A DNA stretch of 64,000 nt from a virus: the IMG/VR virus record IMGVR_UViG_3300044645_001738, positions 1-64,000 of that record; one strand, given 5' to 3'. A program made the translations under genes and the position numbers. Below, piece after piece: positions 4,001-16,154 of the stretch. Within the stretch, counting starts at the first letter, position 1. Every line of letters begins with the position of its first letter. The notes under the pieces are model-generated. The model did no database searches. It had not been told where the DNA came from and saw only the letters and a list, made by a program, of their open reading frames with translations.

Positions 4001-4223
4001 TCCCAAGATCAGGCTGACAATCAACCAACGCAACATCTGGTTCTACTTTCTGAATCACAGGAAGAAGTACAAGAACTTACCTTGTTATGTACCAAAGCTT
4101 CCGATGCAGGAGACCAGGCGTCAAGACTATTACACAGCCTTGGAAAGGTTGGAGCAATACGGATTGATACGCGTGGACAGAACCAGTCGTAACTACACAG
4201 GCTGGATCATGCTTGATCCCTAA
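3969..4223 (+). CDS. Winged-helix-like DNA-binding protein, 84 aa
   Basis: Residues about 15-80 follow a winged-helix pattern: INQRNIWFYFLNHRKKY, a helix RRQDYYTALERLEQYGLI, and a wing RVDRTSRNYTGWIML. Such proteins often regulate transcription; no specific family is identified. It is translationally coupled to the preceding gene and followed by two hairpins that separate it from a leftward gene. Confidence 0.55.
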   Translation: MSNQLDLPKLDPKIRLTINQRNIWFYFLNHRKKYKNLPCYVPKLPMQETRRQDYYTALERLEQYGLIRVDRTSRNYTGWIMLDP

Positions 4224-4228
4224 CCAAC

Positions 4229-4271
4229 ATATAAGTTTTACTTATATTCCATTCGCTATTTGCGAATAGCG
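4229..4271. terminator. Two-hairpin terminator between convergent genes
   Basis: ATATAAG (4229-4235)/CTTATAT (4241-4247) and CGCTATT (4254-4260)/AATAGCG (4265-4271). They lie between a rightward gene ending at 4223 and a leftward gene ending at 4310, and being symmetric could act in both directions. Confidence 0.55.
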
Positions 4272-4283
4272 CACAGTAGGTAC

Positions 4284-4297
4284 CAGAGTATTGCCAG
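4284..4297. repeat. Direct repeat CAGAGTATTGCCAG, copy 1
   Basis: The 14-nt sequence recurs exactly at 4610-4623, flanking the leftward gene at 4310. GTATTGCCAGATAACT (4288-4303) also recurs at 5702-5717, upstream of the next leftward gene. Confidence 0.75.
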
Positions 4298-4309
4298 ATA
4301 ACTGCCAAC

Positions 4310-4579
4310 TTACTTACCTAAAGTATTAATCAAATCTTTATTGGCTTGGTTTACAACTTGATAGGCGTGTTCCAATGGCTTTGGTTTAAGAGACTTTATA
4401 TCTTGAACGTCACTAGCCCAAAACATTCCAACGTTTGAACCGCCCCAAATCAAGTGATCTCCTTGTGCATATCGTTTAGATGTATATTCATTGACAACAT
4501 GCTGATCAATGTATTTACCAGAGGCTACCTCCCTGGGATATGCAACAACTTGATCTACATACTTACCAGCTAATTCCAT
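4310..4579 (-). CDS. Unknown protein, leftward, 89 aa
   Basis: Start taken at the second of two adjacent starts (GTG-ATG), with AAAAGG 8 nt upstream. The sequence (MELAGKYVDQVVAYPREVAS, then YAQGDHLIWGGSNVGMFW, end DLINTLGK) has Tyr/Val repeats and a helical end. It runs against all its neighbours and shares an upstream element with the leftward gene at 5235. It could be a small virion or late protein placed in the early arm. Family unknown. Confidence 0.6.
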   Translation of the reverse strand: MELAGKYVDQVVAYPREVASGKYIDQHVVNEYTSKRYAQGDHLIWGGSNVGMFWASDVQDIKSLKPKPLEHAYQVVNQANKDLINTLGK

Positions 4580-4597
4580 CACTTAAACCTTTTAAAT

Positions 4598-4623
4598 AAC
4601 ATAATAAGACAGAGTATTGCCAG
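4598..4623 (-). promoter_or_regulatory. Putative promoter of the leftward gene at 4310, with repeat copy 2
   Basis: On the minus strand this reads CTGGCAATACTCTGTCTTATTATG. Nearly the same sequence (CTGGCAATACCCTTGTCTTATTAT) lies 5' of the other leftward gene at 5235. TTATTAT would serve as the -10-like part. Two copies before two unusual leftward genes argue for a shared promoter. Confidence 0.5.
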
Positions 4624-4630
4624 CTTCAAC

Positions 4631-4668
4631 CCTGGACATCCACATACTTATGTGGTGTAAGTCCCAGG
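4631..4668 (+). promoter_or_regulatory. Leader element family C, copy 1
   Basis: Outer stem CCTGG (4631-4635)/CCAGG (4664-4668), inner stem CCACAT (4640-4645)/ATGTGG (4650-4655), and an unpaired TGTAAGTC between them on the 3' side. Copies at 8295 and 11893 keep the same architecture and TGTAAGTCC with different stem sequences. The 3' outer arm begins 33 nt before ATG 4697. Confidence 0.55.
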
Positions 4669-4696
4669 ATTAATTCAACCTCTCAACAAACACACT

Positions 4697-5083
4697 ATGA
4701 CTGAATCAAGTGAACAACTGGTTACAGTTATTTGTTTAGTAGTTCAGCCACGTTACGAAGAAGTCGTAATGACTCAGTCTGAATTCGAAGCATTCAATAA
4801 AGAATTCCAAGAGACATGTCCAGACGAATACGAAGAAGACTTGCTGCGTAAGTATAAGTTTGTCGATTGGGAATACGGTACCCTTGGTACTAACTTAGAT
4901 GCTGATAGTTATCAATTTCGAGCTTACCCTGGCGACGTAAGAAACGGATCAGATGATGTTGTTTACTTTGACACGAATCAATCGTGGCAGAAAGCATATT
5001 CAAACAAGAAGCTTTCCCTGCGCAAACATGGAAACTATCTTCGATATGTACAGGAACGTAGAGAATTAACCCAAGAAGAATGA
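4697..5083 (+). CDS. Unknown acidic protein, 128 aa
   Basis: ATG 4697 after CACACTATGAC. It has a beta-like start (QLVTVICLVVQP), an acidic helix (QSEFEAFNKEFQETCPDEYEED) and a basic C-terminal helix (KKLSLRKHGNYLRYVQERREL). The composition is normal for a soluble phage protein. It stands alone behind a family C leader element; the next gene is leftward. No domain recognised. Confidence 0.65.
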   Translation: MTESSEQLVTVICLVVQPRYEEVVMTQSEFEAFNKEFQETCPDEYEEDLLRKYKFVDWEYGTLGTNLDADSYQFRAYPGDVRNGSDDVVYFDTNQSWQKAYSNKKLSLRKHGNYLRYVQERRELTQEE

Positions 5084-5234
5084 TCCCAACTATGTGTACT
5101 ACACTTTTGTGCCTGACTCAATACTTTGGATCGGGCATAACATATACTCAGTCATATAACGCAGTTGCATTTAAAGTTCAAGATACTTTTTACTTTTGTA
5201 CTAAAGCATCTGGATTGTACAACTGCATTACCAA

Positions 5235-5666
5235 TCAAGGCCTATACCATTGAGGATTTGATTGTCGATAGTTATAAATTGTTTCTTCTCTTAACTGTTT
5301 TGCAGGTGAAAGAGAAGTTGTAACATCATTTAAATCACTGCCAAGTCCAAAGATTTCTTTGCTTTGCTGAAAACTTTGAGGCTTGGTGCCAAATCTGAAT
5401 CTTGCTTCTATTGATGGATCTTTAATCCCAACATTTAAACCAAAGTTATTACCCATTACACCAAGTTTTCCATTCAAAGGATTCAAGTTAACGCTACCCG
5501 TATCATCTTTGAATTCCATTGATCCACGATTAAGTAATGCGCTAAATACATTGCCTAACTTCTGTGCATCCGTAGGAGCAACTGGATTGTTAAACTGCGT
5601 TGACAACAACGCATCTGTTACTGCAGGACTCCAAGCACCTGCTAAACGTGTGCCAAAATTAGGCAT
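5235..5666 (-). CDS. Unknown beta-rich protein, leftward, 143 aa
   Basis: The start is set at ATG 5666 (MPNFGTRLAGAW); a longer TTG start would lie inside the promoter-like element. The middle (GSVNLNPLNGKLGVMGNNFG, then LNVGIKDPSIEARFRFG) alternates polar and hydrophobic residues like a beta-barrel or beta-sandwich, and the end is Tyr/Gln-rich. It looks more like a virion protein than an early factor. It runs against its neighbours and shares its upstream element with the gene at 4310. Family unknown. Confidence 0.65.
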   Translation of the reverse strand: MPNFGTRLAGAWSPAVTDALLSTQFNNPVAPTDAQKLGNVFSALLNRGSMEFKDDTGSVNLNPLNGKLGVMGNNFGLNVGIKDPSIEARFRFGTKPQSFQQSKEIFGLGSDLNDVTTSLSPAKQLREETIYNYRQSNPQWYRP

Positions 5667-5689
5667 GTGTTTAAACTTGTTTTTACAAT

Positions 5690-5717
5690 AATAAGACAAG
5701 GGTATTGCCAGATAACT
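5690..5717 (-). promoter_or_regulatory. Putative promoter of the leftward gene at 5235, with repeat copy 3
   Basis: Minus-strand sequence CTGGCAATACCCTTGTCTTATTAT, matching the element at 4598-4623 except for one base and a 1-nt insertion. The plus-strand repeat GTATTGCCAGATAACT is shared with 4288. Confidence 0.5.
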
Positions 5718-5735
5718 ACTGGCCTACCCCCCGAA

Positions 5736-5761
5736 CCCCCCGCTGTTCAGTACCAGGGGGG
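5736..5761 (+). promoter_or_regulatory. C/G hairpin in the leader of the gene at 5822
   Basis: CCCCCC (5736-5741) and GGGGGG (5756-5761) can pair around a 14-nt loop. It lies 60 nt before ATG 5822 and just beyond the leftward promoter. It may be a leader hairpin or may insulate the divergent units. Confidence 0.4.
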
Positions 5762-5821
5762 ATCCTTAGATATACATACGTTATATCCATTTACTCCCAC
5801 CATTCACTCATCAACTCAACC

Positions 5822-6121
5822 ATGGAACAATCACAGAAGTATCCAACGATTGATTGGACTAAGAACGAATACTACCAAGTGCAACGTGCATTGGAGATCC
5901 TCATGCAGGTCGTTGATCGTGAATCAAAACGTCACGAGATGAATCAACATCTCACACCCAGCATGCTCAGCATGTTGGAAGATGAGATCATCCCAATGCT
6001 TAGTAACGAACTTGACTGTGACGGTGGGCCAAGCGATGACGAAATCTGTGGTGAACCACCGATGACGGCAGACGAAATGCACACTGCTGCATGGCGTCAG
6101 CACCAGGAGCTTCACTCCTAA
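5822..6121 (+). CDS. Unknown acidic protein, 99 aa
   Basis: ATG 5822 in the typical CTCAACCATGG context; upstream in-frame codons cross the hairpin. It is helical with a Met-rich stretch (HLTPSMLSMLEDEIIPMLSN) and a Cys/Asp-rich part (LDCDGGPSDDEICGEP), which might bind a metal but has no known motif. It is followed by a strong leader hairpin of the next gene. Confidence 0.65.
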   Translation: MEQSQKYPTIDWTKNEYYQVQRALEILMQVVDRESKRHEMNQHLTPSMLSMLEDEIIPMLSNELDCDGGPSDDEICGEPPMTADEMHTAAWRQHQELHS

Positions 6122-6143
6122 CCAAACATTAAGAGAATCTGTA

Positions 6144-6212: not shown

Positions 6213-6416
6213 ATGTCCGACAAACCACGCATTCCCGACGCACTTGACATGCAACGTCTGCATGTCATGCAGCTTGTTGCCAAGATGAAAGAAGCTGCTG
6301 ATAAACAAGGTGTTCAATTCATCGGGGGTTTCGTCACCCCCGATGGAGAGAAATTTGTAATGACCAATATGGATGAAGATGACCAGCGTATGCTCATGCC
6401 TGAGGAACTCAAGTGA
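6213..6416 (+). CDS. Unknown protein, 67 aa
   Basis: ATG 6213 (context CAGATGTCC). It is helical at the start (ALDMQRLHVMQLVAKMKEAAD), then GGFVTPDGEKFVMTNMDEDD and a Met/Glu end. It overlaps the next gene by 4 nt, which starts the GC-rich family cluster at 6413. Function unknown. Confidence 0.65.
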   Translation: MSDKPRIPDALDMQRLHVMQLVAKMKEAADKQGVQFIGGFVTPDGEKFVMTNMDEDDQRMLMPEELK

Positions 6417-6766
6417 CTAATCAACACCCAATCACCCCACCGCCCGAGCTGGTGACGAATTGGTTAAGACATCGCAAACTTCTGGACCCGCAACCGCTTG
6501 CCCACCATTACCTTGCTAGTCGCGCCGCCCAATGGGGCTCAGACCAGGAGCTGGAGGCGTGTATTGAGTGGGTATCCATTCAGTTGAACTGTACCTCCCA
6601 AGAGCATTTAGTTCCACATCTCCGCGCCGCCCGCCGCCCCAAGCCGCCGAGTCTGAAGGAGCAGGCATTCAAGGATCTAGATGAATTGCTCCGTATTGCG
6701 AGACAAGCTGGAGTTTTTAATCCACCTGATAACATCCGCCGCGCACTGGAGGCTTTGCCCGAATGA
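6413..6766 (+). CDS. Duplicated family 1 (ITPPPELV) protein, 117 aa
   Basis: First of three paralogues in the window (others at 7739 and 15401). Shared marks are ITPPPELV at the start, AAQWG.DQELEAC.EW in the middle, RRPKPPSLKEQA, and IRRALE at the end. As I recall, such proteins are frequent in Synechococcus/Cyanobium phages and metagenomic cyanophage contigs; no function is known. Codon use is much richer in GC (GCC, CGC, CCG) than the genes around, pointing to a different origin. It overlaps the next gene by 4 nt (ATGA). Confidence 0.75.
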   Translation: MTNQHPITPPPELVTNWLRHRKLLDPQPLAHHYLASRAAQWGSDQELEACIEWVSIQLNCTSQEHLVPHLRAARRPKPPSLKEQAFKDLDELLRIARQAGVFNPPDNIRRALEALPE

Positions 6767-7155
6767 CTAAACCTTTAACGCACAACAGAGTTGACATCAA
6801 AGTTATTTTGGCTAACCCCTTACTACGGGAAGAGTTAATTGAGGGTGCTACAGATTTTATTTGCAAAGTTGAAGGTATTCGCCGCCGTAAAGAAGATTTG
6901 GAAATGACTAACCTTTCTTCCGCCGCACAGGCGGTGCTGAGTGCCGCTAATGCTTCCGCAACTAATGCGTGGTCTGACGCCACTCACCAACGCTTTAGGT
7001 CTGGTGTAGCCGCCGCCCTGCAAGCTGCTGCTGATCAGGTGGTGCCGGAAACCACAACACCATGGAACTCCACTTTGACTCCAATGATTTCAGCAGGAGA
7101 AGTACGCGCTAAGTTCCTCGCCATCGCCGCCGAGCTGGAGGGTGGCAATGAATGA
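6763..7155 (+). CDS. Duplicated family 2 (LSPAAQAV) protein with N-terminal extension, 130 aa
   Basis: Residues 48-130 (from internal ATG 6904: MTNLSSAAQAVLSAANA) match the family 2 proteins at 12797 and 15765; the DNA of 6925-7035 is nearly identical to that of 15790-15900. The first 47 residues (VDIKVILANPLLREELIEGA) are absent from the paralogues and are AT-richer, so this is either a fusion of a small gene to family 2 or a case of two starts. The end IAAELEGG is family-typical. Function unknown. Confidence 0.7.
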   Translation: MTKPLTHNRVDIKVILANPLLREELIEGATDFICKVEGIRRRKEDLEMTNLSSAAQAVLSAANASATNAWSDATHQRFRSGVAAALQAAADQVVPETTTPWNSTLTPMISAGEVRAKFLAIAAELEGGNE

Positions 7156-7306
7156 CCTCGATGACACGCTCACCGCGATTGCCGCAGTAGCAACCCTTCT
7201 GATTATGTTTGCGGTTGCTTGGTGGTGGTTGCCGCAAAAGTGGCAAGCCTGCCAAAAGCTGTATGACAACCGTCCAGCCCAAGTATTCTGCTTTGGAGTT
7301 AAATGA
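7148..7306 (+). CDS. Small membrane protein, 52 aa
   Basis: ATG 7148, overlapping family 2 by 8 nt, stop overlapping the next start (ATGA). One transmembrane segment, residues about 8-28 (LTAIAAVATLLIMFAVAWWWL), then a basic helix and FCFGVK-type end. The 37-aa gene at 13546 occupies the same place between family members, so a small membrane protein seems to be part of the cassette. Confidence 0.65.
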   Translation: MNDLDDTLTAIAAVATLLIMFAVAWWWLPQKWQACQKLYDNRPAQVFCFGVK

Positions 7307-7746
7307 CTGACACTTTTCGTGCGCTGTGCGCTGAGCTGGCTGATTCCGTAGAGCTGTTGCTTGAAATGCGGAGCAATGATCGACCGATGCGGGTAACAGA
7401 GGATCGCCTTAACCGCGCCCGCGCCGCCCTGGAGGCCCAGCCCGAGCCGCAGGGGCCGAGTGAACTGGAACTAGAGGCCATTGAACTGAAGCTATGGGAC
7501 AAGCACCGAACCAAGGGATATATGGGAGAAGAGTTTATGTATGACAACGACTTCAGCGCTGCCTTGGATGAATACCGCGCTGCCCTGGCCCGATGGGGCC
7601 GCCCCGCCATCGAGCCCGAGCCGCCGAGCTTGAAGGAGCAGGCGCTGGAGGAGCTAACCGAAATCGACTGTCACTACATACCCCCTGGGGCGACCGAACG
7701 CATTGACATTATCCGCCGCGCACTGGAGGCCCTGCCAAATGACTAG
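7303..7746 (+). CDS. Duplicated family 3 (FRALCAEL) protein, 147 aa
   Basis: Starts MTDTFRALCAELADSVELL; the paralogue at 13056 starts MTDFRALCAELLSEI. Shared marks are ARAAL.AQPEPQGPS, ALARWGRPAIEP, and here also PPSLKEQAL and IRRALEALP, which belong to family 1, so domains are mixed between families. GC-rich codon use. It overlaps both neighbours by 4-8 nt, forming one transcript 6213-8291. Function unknown. Confidence 0.75.
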   Translation: MTDTFRALCAELADSVELLLEMRSNDRPMRVTEDRLNRARAALEAQPEPQGPSELELEAIELKLWDKHRTKGYMGEEFMYDNDFSAALDEYRAALARWGRPAIEPEPPSLKEQALEELTEIDCHYIPPGATERIDIIRRALEALPND

Positions 7747-8098
7747 CCCGATCACCCCGCCGCCGGAGCTAGTGCAGCAGTGGGTGGGCGGCGCCTTCCT
7801 ATCAGATGTGCACCACAACGAAGAAGATTTGGCGTACGAACAGTACATCGCTGAACGTGCCGCCCAATGGGGCGCCGACCAGGAACTGGAGGCGTGCTGT
7901 GAGTGGATTAAATCTGAACTCCGAGGACAACTTCGCCCCGCCCATCGAATCGCCATTGAACTCCGCGATGCCCGCCGCCCCAAGCCGCCGAGTCTGAAGG
8001 AGCAGGCGCTTGGCATCCTTGATGTGGCTCACCACGATGTTTTAGAAGATGACCAAATAGCAACTATCCGCCGCGCACTGGAGCAACTCGATGACTAA
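7739..8098 (+). CDS. Duplicated family 1 (ITPPPELV) protein, 119 aa
   Basis: Second family 1 member: MTSPITPPPELVQQW, then AAQWGADQELEACCEW, then RRPKPPSLKEQALG and IRRALEQLDD. It is closest to the 6413 copy; about 35 nt spanning RRPKPPSLKEQA are nearly identical in DNA. I start at ATG 7739 because the family always begins here. It overlaps the next gene by 8 nt. Function unknown. Confidence 0.75.
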   Translation: MTSPITPPPELVQQWVGGAFLSDVHHNEEDLAYEQYIAERAAQWGADQELEACCEWIKSELRGQLRPAHRIAIELRDARRPKPPSLKEQALGILDVAHHDVLEDDQIATIRRALEQLDD

Positions 8099-8291
8099 AA
8101 ACAAATCACCAATTAACTTTGACAAGACAATCGCTGGCTTTAACATAACTGAGCACGGCGTTAAGTCTTATACCAAGTCAATTAAACTTGGTCCGTTCCA
8201 GGTTACACTTAATGCTCGTGGCTCTGGTGTCAGAGGATCTATTAGTATCCCCGGCACAGGCTTGAGCAAACGTAACATCCAACTGTTCTAA
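8091..8291 (+). CDS. DUF4236-like small protein, 66 aa
   Basis: The core YTKSIKLGPFQVTLN and SISIPGTGLS match the conserved ends of the DUF4236 domain (KSIKLGPFR.NLS ... SIPGTGLSYR), a short domain of unknown function in bacteria and phages. The middle of the domain is shortened. Codon use is AT-richer than the preceding family genes, so it belongs to the phage backbone although it overlaps them by 8 nt. Confidence 0.65.
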   Translation: MTKNKSPINFDKTIAGFNITEHGVKSYTKSIKLGPFQVTLNARGSGVRGSISIPGTGLSKRNIQLF

Positions 8292-8294
8292 TAG

Positions 8295-8327
8295 CTGGGC
8301 ATCACCACTAGGGTGTGTAAGTCCCAG
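8295..8327 (+). promoter_or_regulatory. Leader element family C, copy 2
   Basis: Outer stem CTGGG (8295-8299)/CCCAG (8323-8327), inner stem CACC (8303-8306)/GGTG (8312-8315), and TGTAAGT (8316-8322) between. The 3' arm begins 29 nt before ATG 8352. Confidence 0.5.
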
Positions 8328-8351
8328 TACCCACCTCGCTCTCAACTCAAC

Positions 8352-8525
8352 ATGGATTCACTCACACTATTTGATCGCATCAATCTTGCAAAGTGTGCAC
8401 AGTTGCGTGCTGAAACCAACGTCCTTAACAACGACGTATTTATGGGAGAGTATTACACTGCACGCATGTGGACTAAGTACCGGTGTTACATCACCAAAAC
8501 TGTTTCATTCGTGGAGTCTGACTGA
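8352..8525 (+). CDS. Unknown small protein, 57 aa
   Basis: ATG 8352 in CTCAACATGG context, behind a family C element. Mostly helical (LFDRINLAKCAQLRAE) with a basic, aromatic end (RMWTKYRCYITKTVSF). The last base is the first base of the next start. No family recognised. Confidence 0.6.
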   Translation: MDSLTLFDRINLAKCAQLRAETNVLNNDVFMGEYYTARMWTKYRCYITKTVSFVESD

Positions 8526-8773
8526 TGTCTGTCCTTGCAATCGAATCAACCGTCATCGATGATGACTATGTCACAGTTGAAGCAATTGTTGATGACATGC
8601 GTTGCATTTATGCAGCGACTTACTCAAGCCCTGCTGAATACGCTCCGGCACTTTGCCGAGCTAGCTTCTTCTTGGGTGATGACACCATCCCTACTGATGA
8701 AGATGGCTTCTGCCGTTATCTTGACGCATGCCAGCTTGAGTGGGAACCCATTGATCTAGGTAACGACGAATGA
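8525..8773 (+). CDS. Unknown acidic protein, 82 aa
   Basis: Overlaps the preceding stop (TGATG). Acidic, with beta-like VIDDDYVTVEAIVDDMRC and a helix SPAEYAPALCRASFFL, ending in DLGNDE. Coupled to the next gene by ATGA overlap. Function unknown. Confidence 0.6.
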   Translation: MSVLAIESTVIDDDYVTVEAIVDDMRCIYAATYSSPAEYAPALCRASFFLGDDTIPTDEDGFCRYLDACQLEWEPIDLGNDE

Positions 8774-8943
8774 TTGGATTCTCCATCGAATTTAAACGCT
8801 GGTACATCACAGTGCGTGGTCCCATGGGCAGGGTATATCTCTGCACTGGGTTTGCCAAACGCCTGCCAGTGTTTGTGTCACCGCAACAATCAATTGCATT
8901 TGATGACGACATCACTGATGATGAAGACTATGGTGTAAGGTAA
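8770..8943 (+). CDS. Unknown small protein, 57 aa
   Basis: ATG 8770 overlaps the previous TGA. Beta-rich start MIGFSIEFKRWYITVRGPMG, then basic, then an acidic end (DDDITDDEDYGVR). Its TAA (8941-8943) is directly followed by the family A hairpin. No family recognised. Confidence 0.6.
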   Translation: MIGFSIEFKRWYITVRGPMGRVYLCTGFAKRLPVFVSPQQSIAFDDDITDDEDYGVR

Positions 8944-8946
8944 CAC

Positions 8947-8974
8947 CACGTCCTGAGCATGACGTTAAACTGCT
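8947..8974 (+). promoter_or_regulatory. Leader hairpin family A, reference copy
   Basis: ACGTC (8948-8952), loop CTGAGCAT, GACGT (8961-8965), then TAAACTGCT. Positions 8941-8974 are identical to 9871-9904. GACGT begins 40 nt before ATG 9001. See the finding on family A. Confidence 0.65.
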
Positions 8975-9000
8975 CATCATTTTAATTCAATTGCACACAC

Positions 9001-9873
9001 ATGGACTTCAAAAGTATTAATGATGCTTTCGATATTGATAAAGTGAGGCACCGCGCTGCCATGCATTATCAAAAGTACAAGTCACCTTCAGGTTACCCAA
9101 ACTGGTTAAAGATACTTGACAAAGTTGATATAGCTCATAACGTAATTCATGAAGTCCAAAAGGAAATTGGTAGCTTTGGATTGACACGAGAGTTATCTCA
9201 AGAAGAGAATGCTGCCTTGGTTGTTACAGGCGCTATTGCATCATTGTCTCCACCCATTTGCGTACATGAAAACATAATAGAAGCGCTTGCAAATACAGAT
9301 GTTAAGCCAATGGAAACACCTGAATATGCATTGCCGTTCTTTATATTTCTTTTGCCAAAAGATTTCAAGTTTACAACTAAACTACCTGACTACCAAGGTT
9401 TTGATTTAAATTTTTATGTAGCATTTGCTGCATGTATTCCTGACTGTGTGAAAGTAACTTACATAAGTGAAACTACTGTTTGTTATGGTTCATACCAATG
9501 GACTGAAATCATTACAGAAAAAGATGGAGCCAAAGAAGAAGATTACATCCTGGAAAAGTTCATGAAAAATTTGATACTTATGTATATGTATGAGCCCAAG
9601 TATTTGACAGAGGAAACCATCAAGCTACCCACAAAAGGCAAAGGCTTTGGTTCTAGTGAAAAAGATAAGCCATTCCAAATGCGTTGGCTAGGTAAAAACT
9701 ATAAGCAAGTACGACAAACAGTTGTATGCAAAGACAATATTGTTGATCCAGATAACAAACGATCTGTCCGAGCACATTGGCGTCGTGGACATTGGCACAC
9801 AGTATGCCATGGTCCCAAACACAAACAACGCAAGCAACAGTGGTTTAAACCTGTGTTTGTTAATCAGGATTAA
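9001..9873 (+). CDS. Protein with AcrVA2-type C-terminal HWRRGHW motif, 290 aa
   Basis: The N-terminal 250 residues form a globular part with mixed helices and strands that I do not recognise. Residues about 254-265 (RSVRAHWRRGHW) and the following HGP..K.RK.QWF.P..VN match the C-terminal signature shared by AcrVA2-like proteins and many mobile-element proteins of unknown role (HWRRGHWR..HGP......WI.P). AcrVA2 is an anti-CRISPR known to act against Cas12a production. The match rests on this motif only, and the motif also occurs in proteins not tied to CRISPR. It sits alone between two identical family A leader hairpins. Confidence 0.6.
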   Translation: MDFKSINDAFDIDKVRHRAAMHYQKYKSPSGYPNWLKILDKVDIAHNVIHEVQKEIGSFGLTRELSQEENAALVVTGAIASLSPPICVHENIIEALANTDVKPMETPEYALPFFIFLLPKDFKFTTKLPDYQGFDLNFYVAFAACIPDCVKVTYISETTVCYGSYQWTEIITEKDGAKEEDYILEKFMKNLILMYMYEPKYLTEETIKLPTKGKGFGSSEKDKPFQMRWLGKNYKQVRQTVVCKDNIVDPDNKRSVRAHWRRGHWHTVCHGPKHKQRKQQWFKPVFVNQD

Positions 9874-9876
9874 CAC

Positions 9877-9904
9877 CACGTCCTGAGCATGACGTTAAAC
9901 TGCT
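9877..9904 (+). promoter_or_regulatory. Leader hairpin family A
   Basis: Identical to the copy at 8947, including the stop codon and spacer just before it. GACGT (9891-9895) begins 43 nt before ATG 9934. Confidence 0.65.
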
Positions 9905-9933
9905 TACATTACGAACTTAACTCTGAACTCACC

Positions 9934-11673
9934 ATGGAATTTCGTCTTCCGACCAACCTTCAGAACGAACTTATCCCTTACGATCCAACGCTCAAGAAGT
10001 TGGCACGTACTGAGAAGCAAGGCAAGGCAGGTACCAAGAAATCTAAATATCCACTTGGCAATCCACCACGGTTGATGCCATTGGATGTCGTAAGAGAATC
10101 ACTGCAGCAAGAAGCAATTGATGTTATCAATAGAGTAACTGCTTGTGATAGGCACCATGAATTCAAGTTGCCTGTCGGTAACATCCCCAACGTAGAGTAC
10201 GTTGTCCATGCAGTGATGTACCACTACGAAGGCGTATGGGTAGCAGCATGGCTGCCACCTAAAGGCAAGGAGAATGACTATGTATATGGTTACACTTACT
10301 GCTTTAAGGACACAGCCGCTACTCGTAAGATGCTGGATTGCCAGGTTAAAAATAACCTGGAAAAATACACCGTATCAGAAATTGGTCGTTCTGTTTATTA
10401 CTACAGAACTGAACTGGTTACCAAGCAAAACATCATTGATGGTAATGATCGTCCTTGCTGGATGTATAGCTACGTTGGTGGCTACGCCCAAAAATCTAAG
10501 AACATTGCATCAATGCTTGGACGCTTTAGGGATGCACTTAAGAAAACAATTCCAACCTGGTCAGACGGTCGCGGTATCTTTGATCGCATCAAAACTTCTC
10601 GTACCCTATACAGCTTGCTTAGTGAAGATCGTGATTTGGATAGTACCTATTGGATCAAATACAAAAAAGATTTTAAGCAGACTAAACAACAATGGTCTGC
10701 ATCAGTTGCGTCTTTGTTCCACCTAATTGATTACCATGTAAATGTCTCTCGCTATAATCCGTTTAGCGAATTTGTACGCGTTCGTCATATACTTGATAAA
10801 CCATTCTTCCGCAAGTGGATCCAAGATAAATGTAATGAGATCAATACAAAGTACCAAGATGAATCAGTAGACACTATGGCTACAATCCGCAGGCCTTGGT
10901 TGTTAATCAAAGAGTTTGTTAAGGGTATTCATTATGTCCATTCAATCTGGGGTGATGCAGTTCCATTGGATTACTACCAGTCAAACATTGATAACTTAAT
11001 GGGCGTTAAAACCTGGAGCCCTGTACCAACAATTGTTCTTCCATGGCTAACTGAACATATGCCAGTTGCTTCATTCTTTCAAATGCGTAGCAAATACTAC
11101 CTGGAACAGAAGGCTGCTCCACAACGTAGTTATGACTATGAAGAAAGGCTTGGTATGTCTCAGTACCGATTCCGTGAATGGGAAGATACATGCAGCATGC
11201 TTAATCAAATCCTCAATAATGACAAAACAATTGATCCGCCAAAGCGTTGGCGTATCACTGAACTCCATGACCATGTGCAAGCAGAAGCATGGAAGATCCA
11301 GAATCCCAATCACAAACTTCCACAAGATCTATTCCCTGCACCAATCAAGGTGCAGCACGCTGATCAGAACTGGTCATTCTTCCAGCCATTTGACACTCAT
11401 CAATTGGCACAGTGGGGCCAAGCCGTACGTAACTGCGTAGGTAATGCCAGCAGTTATGCCGAAGGTGTACGCAAGAAACAACACTTTATTGTGTTGTGTA
11501 TGGTCGATGGTGCACCACGCTTTACCATCCAACTTGAAGTCAACATGGGACTCATGAGTGTCAAACAGATTGTTGGAATGCACAACTCCAGGCTGACGGA
11601 GGCAGACCGTGATCTGTACTCAGCAGCTTTCCGTCAGGCCTTGCAATCCCGCGAGGAACAGCTTAAGATCTGA
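9934..11673 (+). CDS. PcfJ-like protein, 579 aa
   Basis: ATG 9934 (CTCACCATGG context). The last about 100 residues contain LAQWGQAVRNCVGNASSYAEG, then HFIVLCMVDGAPRFTIQLEV and KQIVGMHNSRL, the pattern of the PcfJ-like domain (G.aLhHCVg.Y...i.....i.....p..TiEv....i.Q..G..N). PcfJ proteins occur on plasmids and phages; the role is unclear. The 450 residues before it are helix-rich and basic, with no recognised domain. It ends at a strong terminator (11690) and is alone in its unit. Confidence 0.7.
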   Translation: MEFRLPTNLQNELIPYDPTLKKLARTEKQGKAGTKKSKYPLGNPPRLMPLDVVRESLQQEAIDVINRVTACDRHHEFKLPVGNIPNVEYVVHAVMYHYEGVWVAAWLPPKGKENDYVYGYTYCFKDTAATRKMLDCQVKNNLEKYTVSEIGRSVYYYRTELVTKQNIIDGNDRPCWMYSYVGGYAQKSKNIASMLGRFRDALKKTIPTWSDGRGIFDRIKTSRTLYSLLSEDRDLDSTYWIKYKKDFKQTKQQWSASVASLFHLIDYHVNVSRYNPFSEFVRVRHILDKPFFRKWIQDKCNEINTKYQDESVDTMATIRRPWLLIKEFVKGIHYVHSIWGDAVPLDYYQSNIDNLMGVKTWSPVPTIVLPWLTEHMPVASFFQMRSKYYLEQKAAPQRSYDYEERLGMSQYRFREWEDTCSMLNQILNNDKTIDPPKRWRITELHDHVQAEAWKIQNPNHKLPQDLFPAPIKVQHADQNWSFFQPFDTHQLAQWGQAVRNCVGNASSYAEGVRKKQHFIVLCMVDGAPRFTIQLEVNMGLMSVKQIVGMHNSRLTEADRDLYSAAFRQALQSREEQLKI

Positions 11674-11689
11674 TTGCTGAAGCCACAGC

Positions 11690-11726
11690 AGGGCCATCGT
11701 ATTCTCGTTATAGGTGGCCCTTTCTC
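11690..11726 (+). terminator. Intrinsic terminator
   Basis: AGGGCCATC (11690-11698) pairs with GGTGGCCCT (11713-11721), one G-U pair, then TTCTCT. It follows the PcfJ-like gene and just precedes the next start. Confidence 0.6.
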
Positions 11727-11728
11727 TA

Positions 11729-11956
11729 ATGCCTGATTACACTGACGATCAACTACTTGCCATGGCAATGGCAAACCTTGGTGAATACATCCATGACAAC
11801 TCACCACATTACATTCTGATTGAAGAAGATCCTCGCAATGAGGATGACTACGACACGTGGAGTTATGGTACTGAGCCATTACCACGTGATCACACTTGGC
11901 AGCACACATCAGTTGATGTGAGTGTAAGTCCAAGTGATGGGGACATGGCGGAATAG
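11729..11956 (+). CDS. Unknown acidic protein overlapping the tRNA gene, 75 aa
   Basis: ATG 11729 (a GTG at 11714 inside the terminator arm is less likely). Acidic, helical start (MPDYTDDQLLAMAMANLGEYI), then EEDPRNEDDYDTW. The last 18 nt lie inside the tRNA-Leu gene, and the preceding 45 nt form a family C RNA element, so the C-terminal coding part is constrained by RNA structure. Real protein likely, exact end less sure. Confidence 0.5.
   Translation: MPDYTDDQLLAMAMANLGEYIHDNSPHYILIEEDPRNEDDYDTWSYGTEPLPRDHTWQHTSVDVSVSPSDGDMAE
11893..11936 (+). promoter_or_regulatory. Element family C, copy 3, just before tRNA-Leu
   Basis: Outer stem CACTTGG (11893-11899)/CCAAGTG (11930-11936), inner stem CACATCA (11905-11911)/TGATGTG (11914-11920), then TGTAAGT (11923-11929). 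The best-paired copy of the family. It ends 2 nt before the tRNA 5' end. Confidence 0.55.
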
Positions 11957-12024
11957 GTAGACGCAACGGACTTAAAATCCGTAGGCCATTGGCTGTGAGA
12001 GTTCAAGTCTCTCTGTCCCTACCA
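11939..12024 (+). tRNA. trnL(UAA): tRNA-Leu (anticodon UAA)
   Basis: Acceptor GGGGACA/TGTCCCT (one G-U), anticodon stem ACGGA/TCCGT around CTTAAAA (anticodon TAA), a long variable arm as in leucine tRNAs, T-arm GAGAG-TTCAAGT-CTCTC and an encoded CCA. The sequence strongly resembles cyanobacterial tRNA-Leu(UAA), but lacks the group I intron that many cyanobacteria carry in this gene. It would support reading of UUA codons, common in this AT-richer phage compared with a GC-rich host. Confidence 0.93.
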
Positions 12025-12046
12025 ACAAACACACCAGCTCAACACC

Positions 12047-12409
12047 ATGTCAATCTTTGCTTGCTTTAAGTACATCATCCCTGAGTTTCATGCATTCAGT
12101 GATGACGACAATCGTTACAACCTTGGTGCAACATGGACTGCACAAGATGGACTCAAGGATTATCACAACCTTGAACTAAGGTATGTCCATAACTCAGAGC
12201 GGCTTGCGCTCCAGGGGGATCCACAGCCTGATGGATCATGGCGTTACGTGGAAGCCAATGGCTCTGTTCATACCATATCACCTGAACGTGCCAAGCATTT
12301 CATGGAGCAGACTCATCAGCATGCCACGATCATGTGTGCCATGCTCGACAAGCTTAAAGAGTCAGGGGTTATGAACGAACCACTGGACACCCAAGCCAGC
12401 CCAGCTTAA
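12047..12409 (+). CDS. Unknown protein, 120 aa
   Basis: ATG 12047 (CAACACCATG context), 22 nt after the tRNA, so probably co-transcribed with it. Globular, with many aromatic and His residues (YIIPEFHAFSDDDNRYNLG, WRYVEANGSVHTISPERA) and a helical C-terminal part (HATIMCAMLDKLKESG). Ends before a clear terminator. No family recognised. Confidence 0.65.
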   Translation: MSIFACFKYIIPEFHAFSDDDNRYNLGATWTAQDGLKDYHNLELRYVHNSERLALQGDPQPDGSWRYVEANGSVHTISPERAKHFMEQTHQHATIMCAMLDKLKESGVMNEPLDTQASPA

Positions 12410-12427
12410 ACTCAGTACCTACTCACT

Positions 12428-12458
12428 ACCCTCCGTTACTAACAGCGGAGGGTTTACT
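12428..12458 (+). terminator. Intrinsic terminator
   Basis: ACCCTCCG (12428-12435) pairs with CGGAGGGT (12446-12453), then TTACTC. It ends the tRNA/120-aa unit 7 nt before the next ATG. Confidence 0.6.
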
Positions 12459-12459
12459 C

Positions 12460-12804
12460 ATGGACACACAACTTTCAAATGATTACATTGACCTTGACCT
12501 TGTTGACAAGGTGCTTGCATTAGTACCAGAGCAGGCATGGTCTTTAGTATTGACCGCTATTGTTAGCGGCATTGTTGATGAGATGCCATCGACTGTGCTC
12601 CAGGAATTGACTGGAGATGTAGAGGGGTTTGATCGTGCCGAAGAAATCTTAAATTCGTATTACAGTGGCATAGATCAACGTCATGCTTTAATCCAAGATG
12701 CATTCAAACTTATTGGCACAGAAAATACATTGCATCTTTTGGATGCAATGCAATTAAACAAGTATGTTGAATCTCTCGAACTTAACACTGAAACCAATGA
12801 CTGA
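12460..12804 (+). CDS. Unknown helical acidic protein, 114 aa
   Basis: ATG 12460. Almost entirely helical and acidic (DLDLVDKVLALVPEQAWSLVL, EEILNSYYSGIDQRHALIQD). Codon use is AT-rich like the backbone. It overlaps the GC-rich family 2 gene by 8 nt, marking the left edge of the second family cluster. Function unknown. Confidence 0.65.
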   Translation: MDTQLSNDYIDLDLVDKVLALVPEQAWSLVLTAIVSGIVDEMPSTVLQELTGDVEGFDRAEEILNSYYSGIDQRHALIQDAFKLIGTENTLHLLDAMQLNKYVESLELNTETND

Positions 12805-13063
12805 ACCTCTCTCCCCCGCCGCCAGGGCGGTGCTGGATGCCTTCACCGAGGACCATTTTCTCCACGACTGGAAGCACAACCACTACAACACTGACGCTCT
12901 CGCCGCCGCCCTCCGCGCCGCTGCTGATCAGGTGGTGCCGGAGCCTCCGATGATCGTTGAAGGTGGTCGCACTTATGAGGAAGCGTGGACCGCCACCGTC
13001 CATGGCGACATTCGCCGCCAATTCCTTGCCATCGCCGCCGAGCTGGAGGCCCTCAATGACTGA
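12797..13063 (+). CDS. Duplicated family 2 (LSPAAQAV) protein, 88 aa
   Basis: MTEPLSPAARAVLDAFTEDH, then ALRAAADQVVPEPP and IRRQFLAIAAELEALND, all family 2 marks. Very GC-rich compared with the preceding gene. It overlaps the family 3 gene by 8 nt. Short helical protein without known function. Confidence 0.75.
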   Translation: MTEPLSPAARAVLDAFTEDHFLHDWKHNHYNTDALAAALRAAADQVVPEPPMIVEGGRTYEEAWTATVHGDIRRQFLAIAAELEALND

Positions 13064-13553
13064 CTTTCGTGCGCTGTGCGCTGAGCTGTTGAGCGAAATA
13101 CAGGCTTTGCGGCGAGCAGTGGCCGATGAAGTGGGGTGTTCATCACCCGAGCCTTCGGTCATCACCCGCGCCCGCGCCGCACTGGCCCAGCCCGAGCCGC
13201 AGGGGCCGAGTGATGAGGAGCTGTTGCGCATCTACCGAGTAGCAAGATATTGTTACCAAGTCGAAGAGTACAAAAGAGAGTTGGACTTCGCCCGCGCCGT
13301 CTTAGCCCGCTGGGGCCGCCCCGCCATCGAGCCGGTGCCTAAGCAGGAGGACATTCACTACGCCTGGGAACTGCATGATGCCGAGGGTGAGTGGCAGGCT
13401 GGTGGGTCAGCCAACAGCTTGGAGGATGTTCAACGAGAAGGCAATCGCTACCTGCAGACCTACTCGCAAGATGGCCCCCACAAGTTGATCATTGAGCGGC
13501 ACTGCGTAACAACCATCGAGCCGGTGCCTGGGGTGGAGGGTGCCGATGGCTGA
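13056..13553 (+). CDS. Duplicated family 3 (FRALCAEL) protein, 165 aa
   Basis: MTDFRALCAELLSEIQALRR, RARAALAQPEPQGPSDEEL, LARWGRPAIEPVPKQED; the first 95 residues match the gene at 7303. The C-terminal part (YAWELHDAEGEWQAGGSA, YSQDGPHKLIIERHCVTTIEPVP) is different, showing that the family has a conserved N-terminus and exchangeable ends. GC-rich. Overlaps the small membrane gene by 8 nt. Confidence 0.75.
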   Translation: MTDFRALCAELLSEIQALRRAVADEVGCSSPEPSVITRARAALAQPEPQGPSDEELLRIYRVARYCYQVEEYKRELDFARAVLARWGRPAIEPVPKQEDIHYAWELHDAEGEWQAGGSANSLEDVQREGNRYLQTYSQDGPHKLIIERHCVTTIEPVPGVEGADG

Positions 13554-13659
13554 CGCCCTGCTCACCCTCGCCCTGCTGCTCGCCCTCGGCGCAGCGGTTG
13601 AACTAAGTGTGAAAGTAATCTTTGTTAAGTTACTACCGCTGTTACTTAGGTTGCATTAA
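13546..13659 (+). CDS. Small membrane peptide, 37 aa
   Basis: ATG 13546. MADALLTLALLLALGAAVEL followed by VKVIFVKLLPLLLRLH, an almost wholly hydrophobic peptide with one long or two short membrane helices. The stop overlaps the ATG of the next gene (TAATG). It takes the same place in the cassette as the 52-aa membrane protein at 7148. Confidence 0.6.
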   Translation: MADALLTLALLLALGAAVELSVKVIFVKLLPLLLRLH

Positions 13660-14006
13660 TGAAGTGTCGTCAATGTAATAGCAAGAACACACGTGTTACT
13701 TGCACTGATCACTTTGATACATTCACTAAGCGTTACTGCCGATGTCTTGATTGCAATTTAAAGTTTCGAACTGTTGAATACTATGAAGAACGTAAGCCCG
13801 GTCCCCCGCCTGGCACACCAAGAACACGTAACATAACGCGTGGTGAGTCCCATGGTTGTGCAGTGTTTCAAGAGAAGGACATCCGTATGATGCGCACTCT
13901 CTACCAACAAGGCACAACCTTGGTATCCATCGCAATTAAATACGGGACAAGTTCTTCTTACGTGTCACGCATTGTCAACCACAAATCATGGAGCCACATT
14001 AAATGA
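13659..14006 (+). CDS. NrdR-like zinc ribbon plus HTH protein, 115 aa
   Basis: Residues 1-40 carry C3-x2-C6 and C29-x2-C32 with TRVTCTDHFD and CRCLDCNLKFRTVEYYE, closely matching the zinc ribbon of NrdR, the repressor of ribonucleotide reductase genes (CP.CG..dT.V.DsR ... RRR.C..C..RFTTYE). The ATP-cone of NrdR is absent; instead residues 70-115 form a helix-turn-helix (DIRMMRTLYQQGTTLVSIA, YVSRIVNHKSWSHI) like that of the protein at 2737. A DNA-binding regulator is likely, and the position before ThyX suggests a link to nucleotide metabolism, but this is inference. Confidence 0.65.
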   Translation: MKCRQCNSKNTRVTCTDHFDTFTKRYCRCLDCNLKFRTVEYYEERKPGPPPGTPRTRNITRGESHGCAVFQEKDIRMMRTLYQQGTTLVSIAIKYGTSSSYVSRIVNHKSWSHIK

Positions 14007-14299
14007 CCAGTGCCAAGTACGACTTCAACATTGGTGATCGTGTTGCCGAACGTCCCAAGTCACATGGGTTGTTTGCTGTAAGTAAAGAAGCTGAGGAGAT
14101 TGTTAAACGTAATAGGTCTCAAAGGTATGGCACTATCGTTGGCTATGACACACAGCTAAACAAAAGTGGTAAGCGCATGAACATGTTGCTTGTGCAATGG
14201 GATCACCTCAAGTCCCCAATGAAACATGCAAGGTGTAGGATCTGTCCCATTGATCAGCTTGCTACATTGACAAAACAAATCATTGTGCCTGGGGAATGA
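14003..14299 (+). CDS. Unknown basic protein, 98 aa
   Basis: Overlaps both neighbours by 4 nt, in the same transcript as the zinc-ribbon protein and ThyX. The pattern NIGDRVAERPKSHGLFAVS, RYGTIVGY, NMLLVQWDHLKSPMKHA looks like a small SH3-like or KOW-like beta-barrel that binds nucleic acid or protein. Fold assignment is tentative. Confidence 0.6.
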   Translation: MTSAKYDFNIGDRVAERPKSHGLFAVSKEAEEIVKRNRSQRYGTIVGYDTQLNKSGKRMNMLLVQWDHLKSPMKHARCRICPIDQLATLTKQIIVPGE

Positions 14300-14952
14300 C
14301 CATGAACGTATCACTTGTTTGGGTCACGCCTCAAGCCGAAGAGTTGATCACACGCATGGCTCGGGTGTCAGCTCCAAAGAACCAAGGGAATATGGATACA
14401 GCACCTAAGTTGTTGCGCTATTTAATTACGCACCAACATTGGAGTCCATATGAAATGGCTAACATGTGTGTTGAAATCAACACAACACGTGCAATATCTG
14501 CACAGATTATTCGCCATCGTTCGTTTAGCTTTCAAGAATTCAGTCAGCGCTACGCTGATATCAATGAGCTTGGCTCAGCTGTTATCCCACACCTGCGTCG
14601 TCAAGACCACAGCAACAGACAAAATAGTATCGATGACTTGACATCGGAAGATGTTGCCAACTTCTATCGGCGCATCAGTCAACTCTTTGAGGATACTGAG
14701 CATCTCTATCGTGAGATGGTAAGTCAGGGCATTGCCAAAGAGTGCGCCAGGAACATCTTGCCGATGGGTACGCAGACTAAGATTTACATGAACGGTTCGC
14801 TCCGTTCGTGGATACATTACCTGCAGCTAAGAACTTCCAATGGAACCCAAGCAGAACACAAACAAATCGCAGAAGAAATCAAACGAATCTTCTGCGCACA
14901 ATTCCCAGTCATTGGAGAAGCTGTGTTCTCAGGAGATCCAGGGATTACCTGA
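14296..14952 (+). CDS. thyX: Flavin-dependent thymidylate synthase
   Basis: ThyX makes dTMP from dUMP with methylene-tetrahydrofolate, FAD and NADPH. The ThyX signature RHRSFSFQEFSQRY is at residues about 73-86, next to the start-of-domain WSPYEMANMCVEINTTRAIS; the C-terminal NGSLRSWIHYLQLR and AEHKQIAEEI are also typical. The length of 218 aa is normal. The start is ATG 14296; ATG 14302 is possible. Together with dCTP deaminase (49158) it supplies dTTP for phage DNA. It is the last gene before a strong terminator. Confidence 0.95.
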   Translation: MTMNVSLVWVTPQAEELITRMARVSAPKNQGNMDTAPKLLRYLITHQHWSPYEMANMCVEINTTRAISAQIIRHRSFSFQEFSQRYADINELGSAVIPHLRRQDHSNRQNSIDDLTSEDVANFYRRISQLFEDTEHLYREMVSQGIAKECARNILPMGTQTKIYMNGSLRSWIHYLQLRTSNGTQAEHKQIAEEIKRIFCAQFPVIGEAVFSGDPGIT

Positions 14953-14965
14953 AGATTCTTTTGGT

Positions 14966-15008
14966 CAGCCTGTTGAATCAGACAACAACTTCAGCAGGTT
15001 GTTTTTTT
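14966..15008 (+). terminator. Intrinsic terminator after thyX
   Basis: CAGCCTGTTGAA (14966-14977) pairs with TTCAGCAGGTTG (14990-15001), with two G-U pairs, followed by seven T. A textbook terminator for rightward transcription. Confidence 0.8.
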
Positions 15009-15097
15009 AATTCTTTGATGGCACGTTTGGACTCTACATCCTTGCGTGTTTGTTTTTTCTTTTGGTTTGCCAGGTACACAAGCAGTGCTTGATCCAT
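14978..15097 (-). CDS. Possible small leftward gene, 39 aa
   Basis: ATG 15097 (minus) to TGA at 14978: MDQALLVYLANQKKKQTRKD then a Lys-rich helix and end EVVV. The only gene-like reading of the 15010-15110 gap. Its end overlaps the thyX terminator. The leader sequence GTAACAAC.GA..TAC resembles that of the leftward gene at 21354. Basic helical peptide of unknown role. Confidence 0.4.
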   Translation of the reverse strand: MDQALLVYLANQKKKQTRKDVESKRAIKELKKQPAEVVV

Positions 15098-15167
15098 TAT
15101 TCTGTATCTGTTGTTACTGAAGTTTACTTCAATTGATGCACACCATGTTGTTCACTGTGTAACACAA

Positions 15168-15404
15168 ATGACACCAAACAAATACCAACGCAACGCACGT
15201 TTTAATTATTTGGCAAAGTATGATCACTTTGCTAAACCAGATGACTTCATTGAAGTAACCGAATGGTACAACGGTGAAGGCTTTGATGTACACCTCAGCA
15301 CCAGCGCTGGTGAACAGCGTATGTCATTTAGCTGGGGTGAGTACCAAGCATTGAAAGCAACTCTTGGTGACTGGGCTGAAAACAATCTGGAGGATGAAGA
15401 ATGA
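15168..15404 (+). CDS. Unknown protein, 78 aa
   Basis: ATG 15168 (ACAAATGAC context); a TTG at 15111 is open but less likely. Aromatic-rich N-terminus (NARFNYLAKYDHF), beta-rich middle (DFIEVTEWYNGEGFDVHLS), acidic end. Overlaps the family 1 gene by 4 nt. No family recognised. Confidence 0.6.
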   Translation: MTPNKYQRNARFNYLAKYDHFAKPDDFIEVTEWYNGEGFDVHLSTSAGEQRMSFSWGEYQALKATLGDWAENNLEDEE

Positions 15405-15772
15405 CTAATCAAATTAATGGTGACAAGTTATTTGTCATTAATCCACACCCTGCCATCCCACCTTCTGATCAACTAAAGAAGTGGGAAGACAAATGGTTCG
15501 ATGAAGAAGAACATCCTGATGTTCTGTTAATCCAGGCGTTTCAAGCAGGCGCCGACCAGGAGCTGGAGGCGTGTGTGGAGTGGCTTGGTGATGCTCCTGT
15601 TGTATGGGACAACAATGGCGATCTTCATCCAGGTTCATATTTAAGAGATGCCCGTCGCCCTAAACCAAACTTGAAGGAGCAGGCGCTAACGGCATTGCTG
15701 CACCTTGACCAAGGACAACATAACGAGCGCTGCTTGATCATCCGCCGCGCCCTGGAGCAACTCGATGACTGA
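15401..15772 (+). CDS. Duplicated family 1 protein, divergent copy, 123 aa
   Basis: Third family 1 member. The start is altered (PHPAIPPSDQLKKWED instead of ITPPPELVQQW), but QAGADQELEACVEW, LRDARRPKPNLKEQAL and IIRRALEQLDD are kept. Parts are AT-rich and parts GC-rich, as if an old GC-rich gene were adapting to phage composition or had recombined. Overlaps the next family 2 gene by 8 nt. Confidence 0.7.
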   Translation: MTNQINGDKLFVINPHPAIPPSDQLKKWEDKWFDEEEHPDVLLIQAFQAGADQELEACVEWLGDAPVVWDNNGDLHPGSYLRDARRPKPNLKEQALTALLHLDQGQHNERCLIIRRALEQLDD

Positions 15773-16007
15773 ACTTCTCTCCCCCGCCGCACAGGCGGTG
15801 CTGAGTGCCGCTAATGCTTTCGCAACTAATGCGTGGTCTGACGCCACTCACCAACGTTTTAGGTTTGGTGTAGCCGCTGCCCTGCGAGCTGCTGCGGATC
15901 AAAAAAGCGAGTCCGTCTGCACTGAAGAACACGGCAAAATTTCCGTCATTTTTACTGGCGACATCCTTTCTCTCGCCGCCGAGCTGGAGGGTGTGACCTC
16001 ACGGTGA
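15765..16007 (+). CDS. Duplicated family 2 (LSPAAQAV) protein, 80 aa
   Basis: MTELLSPAAQAVLSAANAFA, then TNAWSDATHQRFRFGVAAAL. The first about 45 codons are nearly identical in DNA to 6904-7040, so this duplication is recent; the second half differs (SESVCTEEHGKISVIFTGDI), ending SLAAELEGVTSR. GC-rich. Function unknown. Confidence 0.75.
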   Translation: MTELLSPAAQAVLSAANAFATNAWSDATHQRFRFGVAAALRAAADQKSESVCTEEHGKISVIFTGDILSLAAELEGVTSR

Positions 16008-16105: not shown

Positions 16106-16133
16106 CACGTCCTAAGCATGACGTTAAACTGCT
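16106..16133 (+). promoter_or_regulatory. Leader hairpin family A
   Basis: ACGTC (16107-16111), loop CTAAGCAT, GACGT (16120-16124), TAAACTGCT. GACGT begins 35 nt before ATG 16155. Confidence 0.65.
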
Positions 16134-16154
16134 AGTCAACTCAACTCAACTACC

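Follow-up and report, generated by a model that had tools for sequence, protein, structure and literature searches.

Short sequences conserved at gene boundaries are an established candidate for recombination joints in phages, as proposed for lambdoid and P22-like phages (Susskind and Botstein, 1978; Clark et al, 2001, both as cited in PMC3029335). In mycobacteriophages, PMC3029335 describes one event of this kind, in which Island3 gp67 and gp68 share an 18-residue C-terminal tail at the DNA level, and reports that most mosaic joints lack such shared sequences. Two further classes of repeated elements have been described: the SAS of cluster K mycobacteriophages, 13-bp sequences (GGGATAGGAGCCC) located 3–7 bp upstream of start codons, for which the passages of PMC3203893 that describe them report no role in shuffling, and the mobile regulatory cassettes of T4-type phages (promoter early stem loops), which have been proposed as mediators of gene shuffling (as summarized in PMC4503421). 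The ORFanage of cyanophage S-PM2 is a dispensable block of small orphan genes whose loss brings a fitness gain in the laboratory and which is present in freshwater metagenomes; its authors propose mispackaging and report no repeated connectors (PMC4503421). At the domain level, recent shuffling has been detected mainly in receptor-binding proteins, endolysins and replication proteins (Smug et al, 2023; PMC10684548). Here we analyze an array of small overlapping genes in a 64,000-nucleotide stretch of viral DNA (the window; positions 1 to 64,000 of the 83,977-bp virus record IMGVR_UViG_3300044645_001738), in which genes and domains appear to be exchanged at recurrent connector sequences.

We read the window as an S-EIV1-like Synechococcus phage with three slots for plug-in genes, supplied from a shared bank of recombining cassettes whose connectors would act both as recombination joints and as translation couplers, and we assign this whole reading a probability of roughly 0.7. 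The DNA polymerase of the window shares 67% identity with that of Synechococcus phage S-EIVl (KJ410740; spelled S-EIV1 in the literature), a phage from a high Arctic lake whose host is Synechococcus PCCC-A2c. Small overlapping genes of three families fill the slots: A (6413, 7739 and 15401), B (6904, 12797 and 15765) and C (7303 and 13056), confirming the three families in three clusters that an initial annotation had discerned from the letters of the window. Profile searches of the whole record, which also covered positions 64,001–83,977, returned exactly three A genes, an A-type tail within C1 at 7600–7740 and three B genes in all. Family A corresponds to phrog_32006 (full-length profile matches: A1, 2e-30; A2, 8e-28; A3, 1e-19), the annotation of which mentions neither a function nor shuffling, while neither Pfam nor PHROGs contains a family for B or C, single stray matches aside. 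Compared viral loci are labeled L plus a number (L294, isolate S-CBS2; L295, isolate S-H1), and near-duplicate contigs among the sampled collections were removed by sequence where counts were made. The features of the three slots are as follows:

6213–6416, plus strand: backbone gene, left flank of slot 1; its end overlaps A1 and, in L261, the gene at 8091
6413–6420, plus strand: left connector GTGACTAA, stop of the 6213 gene and start of A1; single copy at the empty site of L261
6413–6766, plus strand: A1, family A (phrog_32006)
6763–7155, plus strand: B1, family B; core 6904–7155, possible N-terminal extension 6763–6903 (89% to L259)
7142–7306, plus strand: M, small membrane protein of 54 residues, single hydrophobic stretch by eye
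7303–7746, plus strand: C1, family C mosaic; N segment 7303–7437, middle 7438–7593, A-type tail 7594–7743
7739–8098, plus strand: A2, family A
8091–8098, plus strand: right connector ATGACTAA, stop of A2 and start of the DUF4236 gene
8091–8291, plus strand: DUF4236 gene, backbone, right flank of slot 1
12797–13063, plus strand: B2, slot 2; a ATGACTGA overlap joins it to the 12460 gene
13056–13553, plus strand: C2, family C mosaic; N segment 13056–13180, middle 13181–13320, C-terminal HYAWEL module
13324–13340, plus strand: 17-bp direct repeat CCATCGAGCCGGTGCCT, left of the HYAWEL module
13513–13529, plus strand: 17-bp direct repeat CCATCGAGCCGGTGCCT, right of the HYAWEL module
15401–15772, plus strand: A3, divergent family A, slot 3
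15765–16007, plus strand: B3, family B; joined to A3 by GAGCAACTCGATGACTGA

Five relatives (L257–L261), whose polymerases are 94–100% identical to that of the window, carry backbone genes that are mostly 90–100% identical to it and slots that differ in content. Slot 1, which extends from the 6213 gene to the DUF4236 gene, holds A1-B1-M-C1-A2 in the window and is empty in L261: the five-gene block 6413–8098 is absent there, with one copy of the octamer as against a copy at both flanks of the block in the window. The left joint of the window reads ...GAGGAACTCAA GTGACTAA TCAACACC... and the right joint ...GAGCAACTCG ATGACTAA AAACAAATC..., and the empty slot of L261 reads ...GAGGAACTCAA GTGACTAA AGACAAATC..., with AGAC directly after GTGACTAA. 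Slot 2 (12460 to 13659 genes) contains B2-C2 in the window and about 3.5 kb of different cassettes in L258. Slot 3, from the 15111 gene to the GP88 gene (16155), contains A-B in the window, L258 and L259, A-B with a small gene in between in L257, three A genes and one B in L260, and more in L261. The first A genes of slot 3 are 45–66% identical to the A genes of the window, compared with 97–100% for the GP88 gene beside them, and an extra A gene of L261 relative to the window is likewise bounded by GAATGACTAAnCAA. Terminal direct repeats of at least 10 bp accompany 17 of 27 array-gene insertions, versus 9 of 43 other insertions in the same contigs (Fisher p = 8e-4). As a separate observation, slot 2 of L258 carries two near-duplicate genes (3205–3906 and 5463–6137), with leucine/methionine-rich simple repeats at their ends in one frame.

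The start of a cassette gene, RTGAC(T), sits inside the stop of the preceding gene. Among genes with a resolvable start in the compared loci, the start overlaps or abuts an upstream open frame in 143 of 187 A, 167 of 193 B and 124 of 133 C genes, most commonly through ATGA or the 8-bp ATGACTRR. Position-specific counts place a GGAG centered at −11 to −8 before the starts; read in the frame of the upstream protein, it corresponds to the codons CTG GAG in IRRALE or AAELE, and the conserved C-terminal tails accordingly double as ribosome-binding sites. In many upstream genes the C-terminal codons thus supply the Shine-Dalgarno GGAG of the gene connector, which is completed by the overlapping stop/start (RTGACTRA). 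ATGAC is found in 203 of 240 8-bp overlaps before A, B and C genes and in 174 of 445 before other genes of the same contigs. An exact 21-bp connector, CTGGAGCAACTCGATGACTRA, recurs at 104 distinct junctions among the sequences compared and leads into 25 B, 16 A and 14 C genes and 49 others; the other genes of at least 45 residues form 22 clusters, among them DUF4236-like and DUF3310-like ones (named by resemblance). The B-type connector links B to C (21/56), to the small membrane protein and to other genes. In isolate S-CBS2, ATGACTGA links A (gp065), B (gp066) and gp067 into a chain, and in isolate S-H1 the start of A is fused onto an unrelated C-terminus. The C-terminal codons, the stop and the next start may therefore form a universal connector, one that would keep translation coupled whatever genes are joined. 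In the two cultured isolates, connectors lie at 3986–5571 (S-CBS2) and 2735–3333 (S-H1).

Mosaicism extends into single genes. Residues 1–45 of C1 (7303–7437) are 98% identical to L224/L218 and residues 46–97 (7438–7593) are 99% identical to L222/L101, followed by an A-type tail (7594–7743) like that of L040. In C2, the N-terminal part (13056–13180) matches L110 at 97% identity, the middle (13181–13320) matches L113 at 100% and the C-terminal HYAWEL module matches L096 at 97%. Overall, the segments of C1 and C2 are 96–100% identical to segments in different contigs, and 15 of the 17 partner loci examined have no further DNA in common with the window at 85% identity; the remaining ones share the gene before slot 3 (L218) or that gene and a short stretch at 3376–3541 (L019). 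The gene for M is 88–93% identical at the DNA level in L153, L104, L105 and L108. L093 and L113 differ by exactly the HYAWEL module, with a 25-bp terminal repeat, and a domain-sized difference between L120 and L115 has a 9-bp terminal repeat. The HYAWEL module is free-standing in L124, L143, L208, L211 and L236, fused to B in L133 and fused to an A start in L123; in L222, an A N-terminus is joined to a C middle at AARAALAQPEPQ. Recurrent modules have two or more partners in 9 of 10 N-terminal, 10 of 10 middle and 6 of 6 C-terminal cases, and constant blocks alternate with segments that vary in length and sequence.

The motifs listed in the initial annotation can be placed in this framework. 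KPPSLKEQAL and IRRALE are indeed common to family A and C1, at the DNA level, while ARWGRPAIEP, which had been assigned to several families, is confined within the window to C1 and C2 of a single family and crosses families elsewhere, for example in L133, a B protein bearing an ARWG..PEPQG extension. The supposed near-identity of the 6904 and 15765 copies holds over 125 nt (93%; 6913–7037/15777–15901), outside which they diverge. A start of the first B copy at 6763 may be correct, through a 47-residue extension of B1; a stretch 89% identical to this extension precedes a B gene in L259. The 15401 copy lacks ITPPPELV and has a different N-terminus, and the small membrane protein that was placed alongside each family stands beside only one cluster (7142–7306). 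Duplication inside the genome is weakly indicated, most segments being nearer to other phages than to the copies in the window. The proposal of an accessory pool undergoing recombination and module exchange agrees with the empty site, the DNA mosaics and the cross-family chimeras, which exclude vertical inheritance of single genes with no module exchange.

The likenesses among copies extend to codon choice. At identical degenerate residues the same codon recurs with a frequency of 0.60 (A), 0.61 (B) and 0.64 (C) at 35–60% protein identity, compared with 0.32 after codons were shuffled within genes, which argues that these likenesses are not due to chance. Backbone genes of equal divergence reach 0.25–0.41, near their own shuffles (0.23–0.31). 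This excess over both backbone and shuffles indicates that the constant blocks are far younger, or more constrained at the DNA level, than the surrounding protein; silent sites are conserved equally in internal constant blocks and in those near gene ends.

The sequences themselves show that slots turn over, that empty sites have a single repeat copy, that terminal repeats occur, that mosaics span unrelated phages and that connectors are reused. As a mechanism, we propose that general homologous or annealing-type recombination at repeats would gain, lose and swap whole genes at RTGACTRA connectors, that domains would swap in frame at linkers such as IEPVP and QPEPQGP, and that these swaps would draw on a pool centered on GC-rich cyanophages. 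The window encodes an exonuclease (31250–32104), an SSB (19230), a Gp157-like protein (23872–24573) and a DUF5895 protein (20283–21362). The DUF5895, Gp157-like and exonuclease genes are located near the replication module, as candidate recombination machinery. In a stronger form, connectors and linkers would be kept by selection for recombination itself, such that any gene or domain could be plugged in anywhere in frame and translated; we regard this as unlikely, although, if true, it would endow each phage lineage with its own set of composite host-interaction proteins.

Several observations count against recombination at conserved joints. Breakpoints show gaps rather than repeats in 7 of the 27 array events, and repeats also occur in the 9 of 43 control events mentioned above. 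AC is the top dinucleotide (174/445) in the 8-bp overlaps before genes outside families A, B and C, other array genes included, and the choice of ACT as codon 2 may partly reflect an ordinary preference in start-codon context. Since only one complete 2x2 module set is available, four-gamete counts are too sparse to add support, and the case for linkage equilibrium rests on change of partners. No annealing protein was recognized among the genes of the window. Finally, the recombination events are inferred by comparing sequences, in which gain and loss are not polarized.

The alternative that best survives the data holds that connectors are conserved solely as translation couplers, with illegitimate recombination occurring anywhere and selection keeping the translatable joints. 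The placement of GGAG at −11 to −8 and the overlapping stop/start fit the needs of coupling, and some events lack a repeat; however, sub-gene swaps end in repeats (25 bp in L093/L113, 9 bp in L120/L115 and 17 bp at HYAWEL in C2) although joints within genes need no translation signal, and the silent sites of internal constant blocks are conserved like those near the ends. We consider this explanation improbable. A site-specific cassette system, integron-like or transposon-like, would account for precise insertion at a short core with flanking direct repeats, but the length and sequence of the repeats differ between events, domain-sized inserts move too, and no dedicated recombinase was found among the genes scanned. 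Moreover, the 4–20 kb region contains no inverted repeats of at least 30 nt (shorter attC-like sites and an integrase were not searched for record-wide), and such a system is very improbable.

Base composition bears on the source of the cassettes. As the initial annotation stated, most copies are GC-rich (C1, 0.60; A2, 0.59; B2, 0.63; C2, 0.61) relative to the rest of the window (0.473), while B1 (0.50) and A3 (0.49) lie slightly above the backbone. Across 195 contigs, backbone GC ranges from 0.34 to 0.69 and cassette GC from 0.50 to 0.69 (median 0.60), with a slope of 0.29; cassettes are richer than the backbone in 50 of 50 contigs with backbone GC below 0.50, and GC-rich phages show no difference. 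Cassettes keep a GC of about 0.60 in backbones of any composition, which speaks for a GC-rich phage pool, and the pattern fits a pool centered on GC-rich phages combined with partial adaptation. Of the two sources initially suggested, a GC-rich phage pool is thus supported and a GC-rich host is not. An origin in a GC-rich cyanobacterial host, with the genes adapting only slowly to the phage, would also explain the excess in all 50 low-GC contigs, but the families are nearly absent from cyanobacterial genomes, and we rejected this largely refuted origin. Family A occurs in at least 592 viral stretches, against three contigs of metagenome-assembled genomes among the matches listed for the GTDB genome collection. 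Within the family of the Cyanobium metagenome-assembled genome, it is absent from 299 of 300 genomes; the single positive is that assembly itself, and its contig also bears phage-like genes, as judged by reading its open reading frames, and looks viral. Among isolates, family A is present in S-CBS2, S-H1 and S-RIP1, with a truncated copy in S-EIV1; family B and the HYAWEL domain were not found by tblastn against other phage isolates, except for B in S-CBS2.

The modules are under purifying selection, with dN/dS values of 0.24 for HYAWEL, 0.46 for B and 0.40 for A (the last from six pairs only). Rapid diversifying mutation in fixed genes with no swapping, which the alternation of constant blocks and variable segments might suggest, can be set aside almost entirely because the variable segments of C1 and C2 recur as 96–100% identical DNA in other phages with different partners and dN/dS is below 1.

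Tentatively, the products could be early proteins, small and dispensable, whose targets are host factors, as in takeover or counter-defense, a role suggested by the neighboring thyX, polymerase and ssb genes, the empty alleles, the diversity under purifying selection and the lack of any enzyme family. Such action on host factors would explain why variety is kept. The predicted model of A is all-helical, with five helices (pLDDT 87), and in that of C2 the HYAWEL domain adopts a confident small beta-beta-alpha-beta fold (pLDDT about 92). Weighing against a host-interaction role, the model of A has no PDB match below E 1, and the best fold matches of the C2 model are not significant; its weak resemblance to the T4 antitoxin Dmd (E 0.8, not significant) serves as a lead only. 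No significant sequence relatives were found in the PDB, and ten array proteins had no match among PADLOC defense models, which do not cover counter-defense. DUF551 was rejected as the identity of the C-terminal module of family C relatives, as 33 members gave no Pfam match at E 0.01.

The window also holds a second type of cassette:

8947–9920, plus strand: gene 9001–9873 between two copies of the 44-bp repeat CACGTCCTGAGCATGACGTTAAACTGCT

In L261, the gene is absent and one copy of the 44-bp repeat is present. The window contains four intergenic repeats of the CACGTCCTGAGCATGACGTTAAACTGCT type (8947–8990, 9877–9920, 16106–16149 and 19180–19223). The repeat type gave 6 matches versus 0.07 expected; its copies are located directly before gene starts and recur in relatives, and it has the look of a regulatory element doubling as a recombination joint. 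In two of the close relatives, an HNH-type endonuclease gene (identified by eye) lies within thyX in L259 (1101–1701) and L260 (819–1419), with a diverged ThyX start behind it. Probably, a free-standing homing endonuclease has taken the place of the 5' end of thyX; the insertion gave no Rfam intron match. The window also carries a single tRNA gene (Rfam; 11939–12021), between the 11714 and 12047 genes.

Compared with described systems, the array is best read as a two-level version, acting on both genes and domains, of the known idea of conserved boundary sequences. As in that idea, insofar as the literature cited in PMC3029335 conveys it, a short sequence is common to unrelated gene boundaries (here the exact 21-bp connector, in front of A, B, C and at least 22 other clusters), recombination joints appear by comparison to fall inside the shared sequence (17/27 vs 9/43), and the shared tail of Island3 gp67/gp68 resembles IRRALEQLDD here. 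In contrast to those sequences, the present connector comprises a coding tail, a Shine-Dalgarno sequence and a stop/start overlap, is reused exactly at more than 100 distinct junctions in many phages, and has a counterpart in a second set of linkers within genes. The SAS, as far as the description in PMC3203893 extends, similarly place a repeated Shine-Dalgarno-bearing sequence before unlike small genes of a non-structural region. Unlike them, the element described here lies inside the upstream gene and protein and includes the start/stop overlap (consensus (C)TGGAG...CRATGACTRA), and the connectors do not show the 13-bp GGGATAGGAGCCC upstream of starts. T4-type cassettes, in the outline given in PMC4503421, are likewise repeated elements between accessory genes, but they consist of a promoter and stem-loop whereas the connectors of the array are translational. 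A closer counterpart may be the 44-bp repeat that flanks gene 9001. The array resembles the S-PM2 ORFanage in that a block of small cyanophage genes can be dispensable (PMC4503421), and the survey of Smug et al (2023; PMC10684548) in that domain shuffling between unlike phage proteins is ongoing, although here the proteins are small and unannotated and the joints are identified. The analysis brings order to a large class of small cyanophage genes that lack annotation; two of the three families fall outside Pfam and PHROGs. Because the joints are readable at more than 100 distinct junctions, at the scale of both genes and domains, and would double as translation couplers, the homologous versus illegitimate origin of phage mosaics, a long-standing question, becomes directly testable, including in the cultured phages S-CBS2 and S-H1, which offer convenient laboratory systems.

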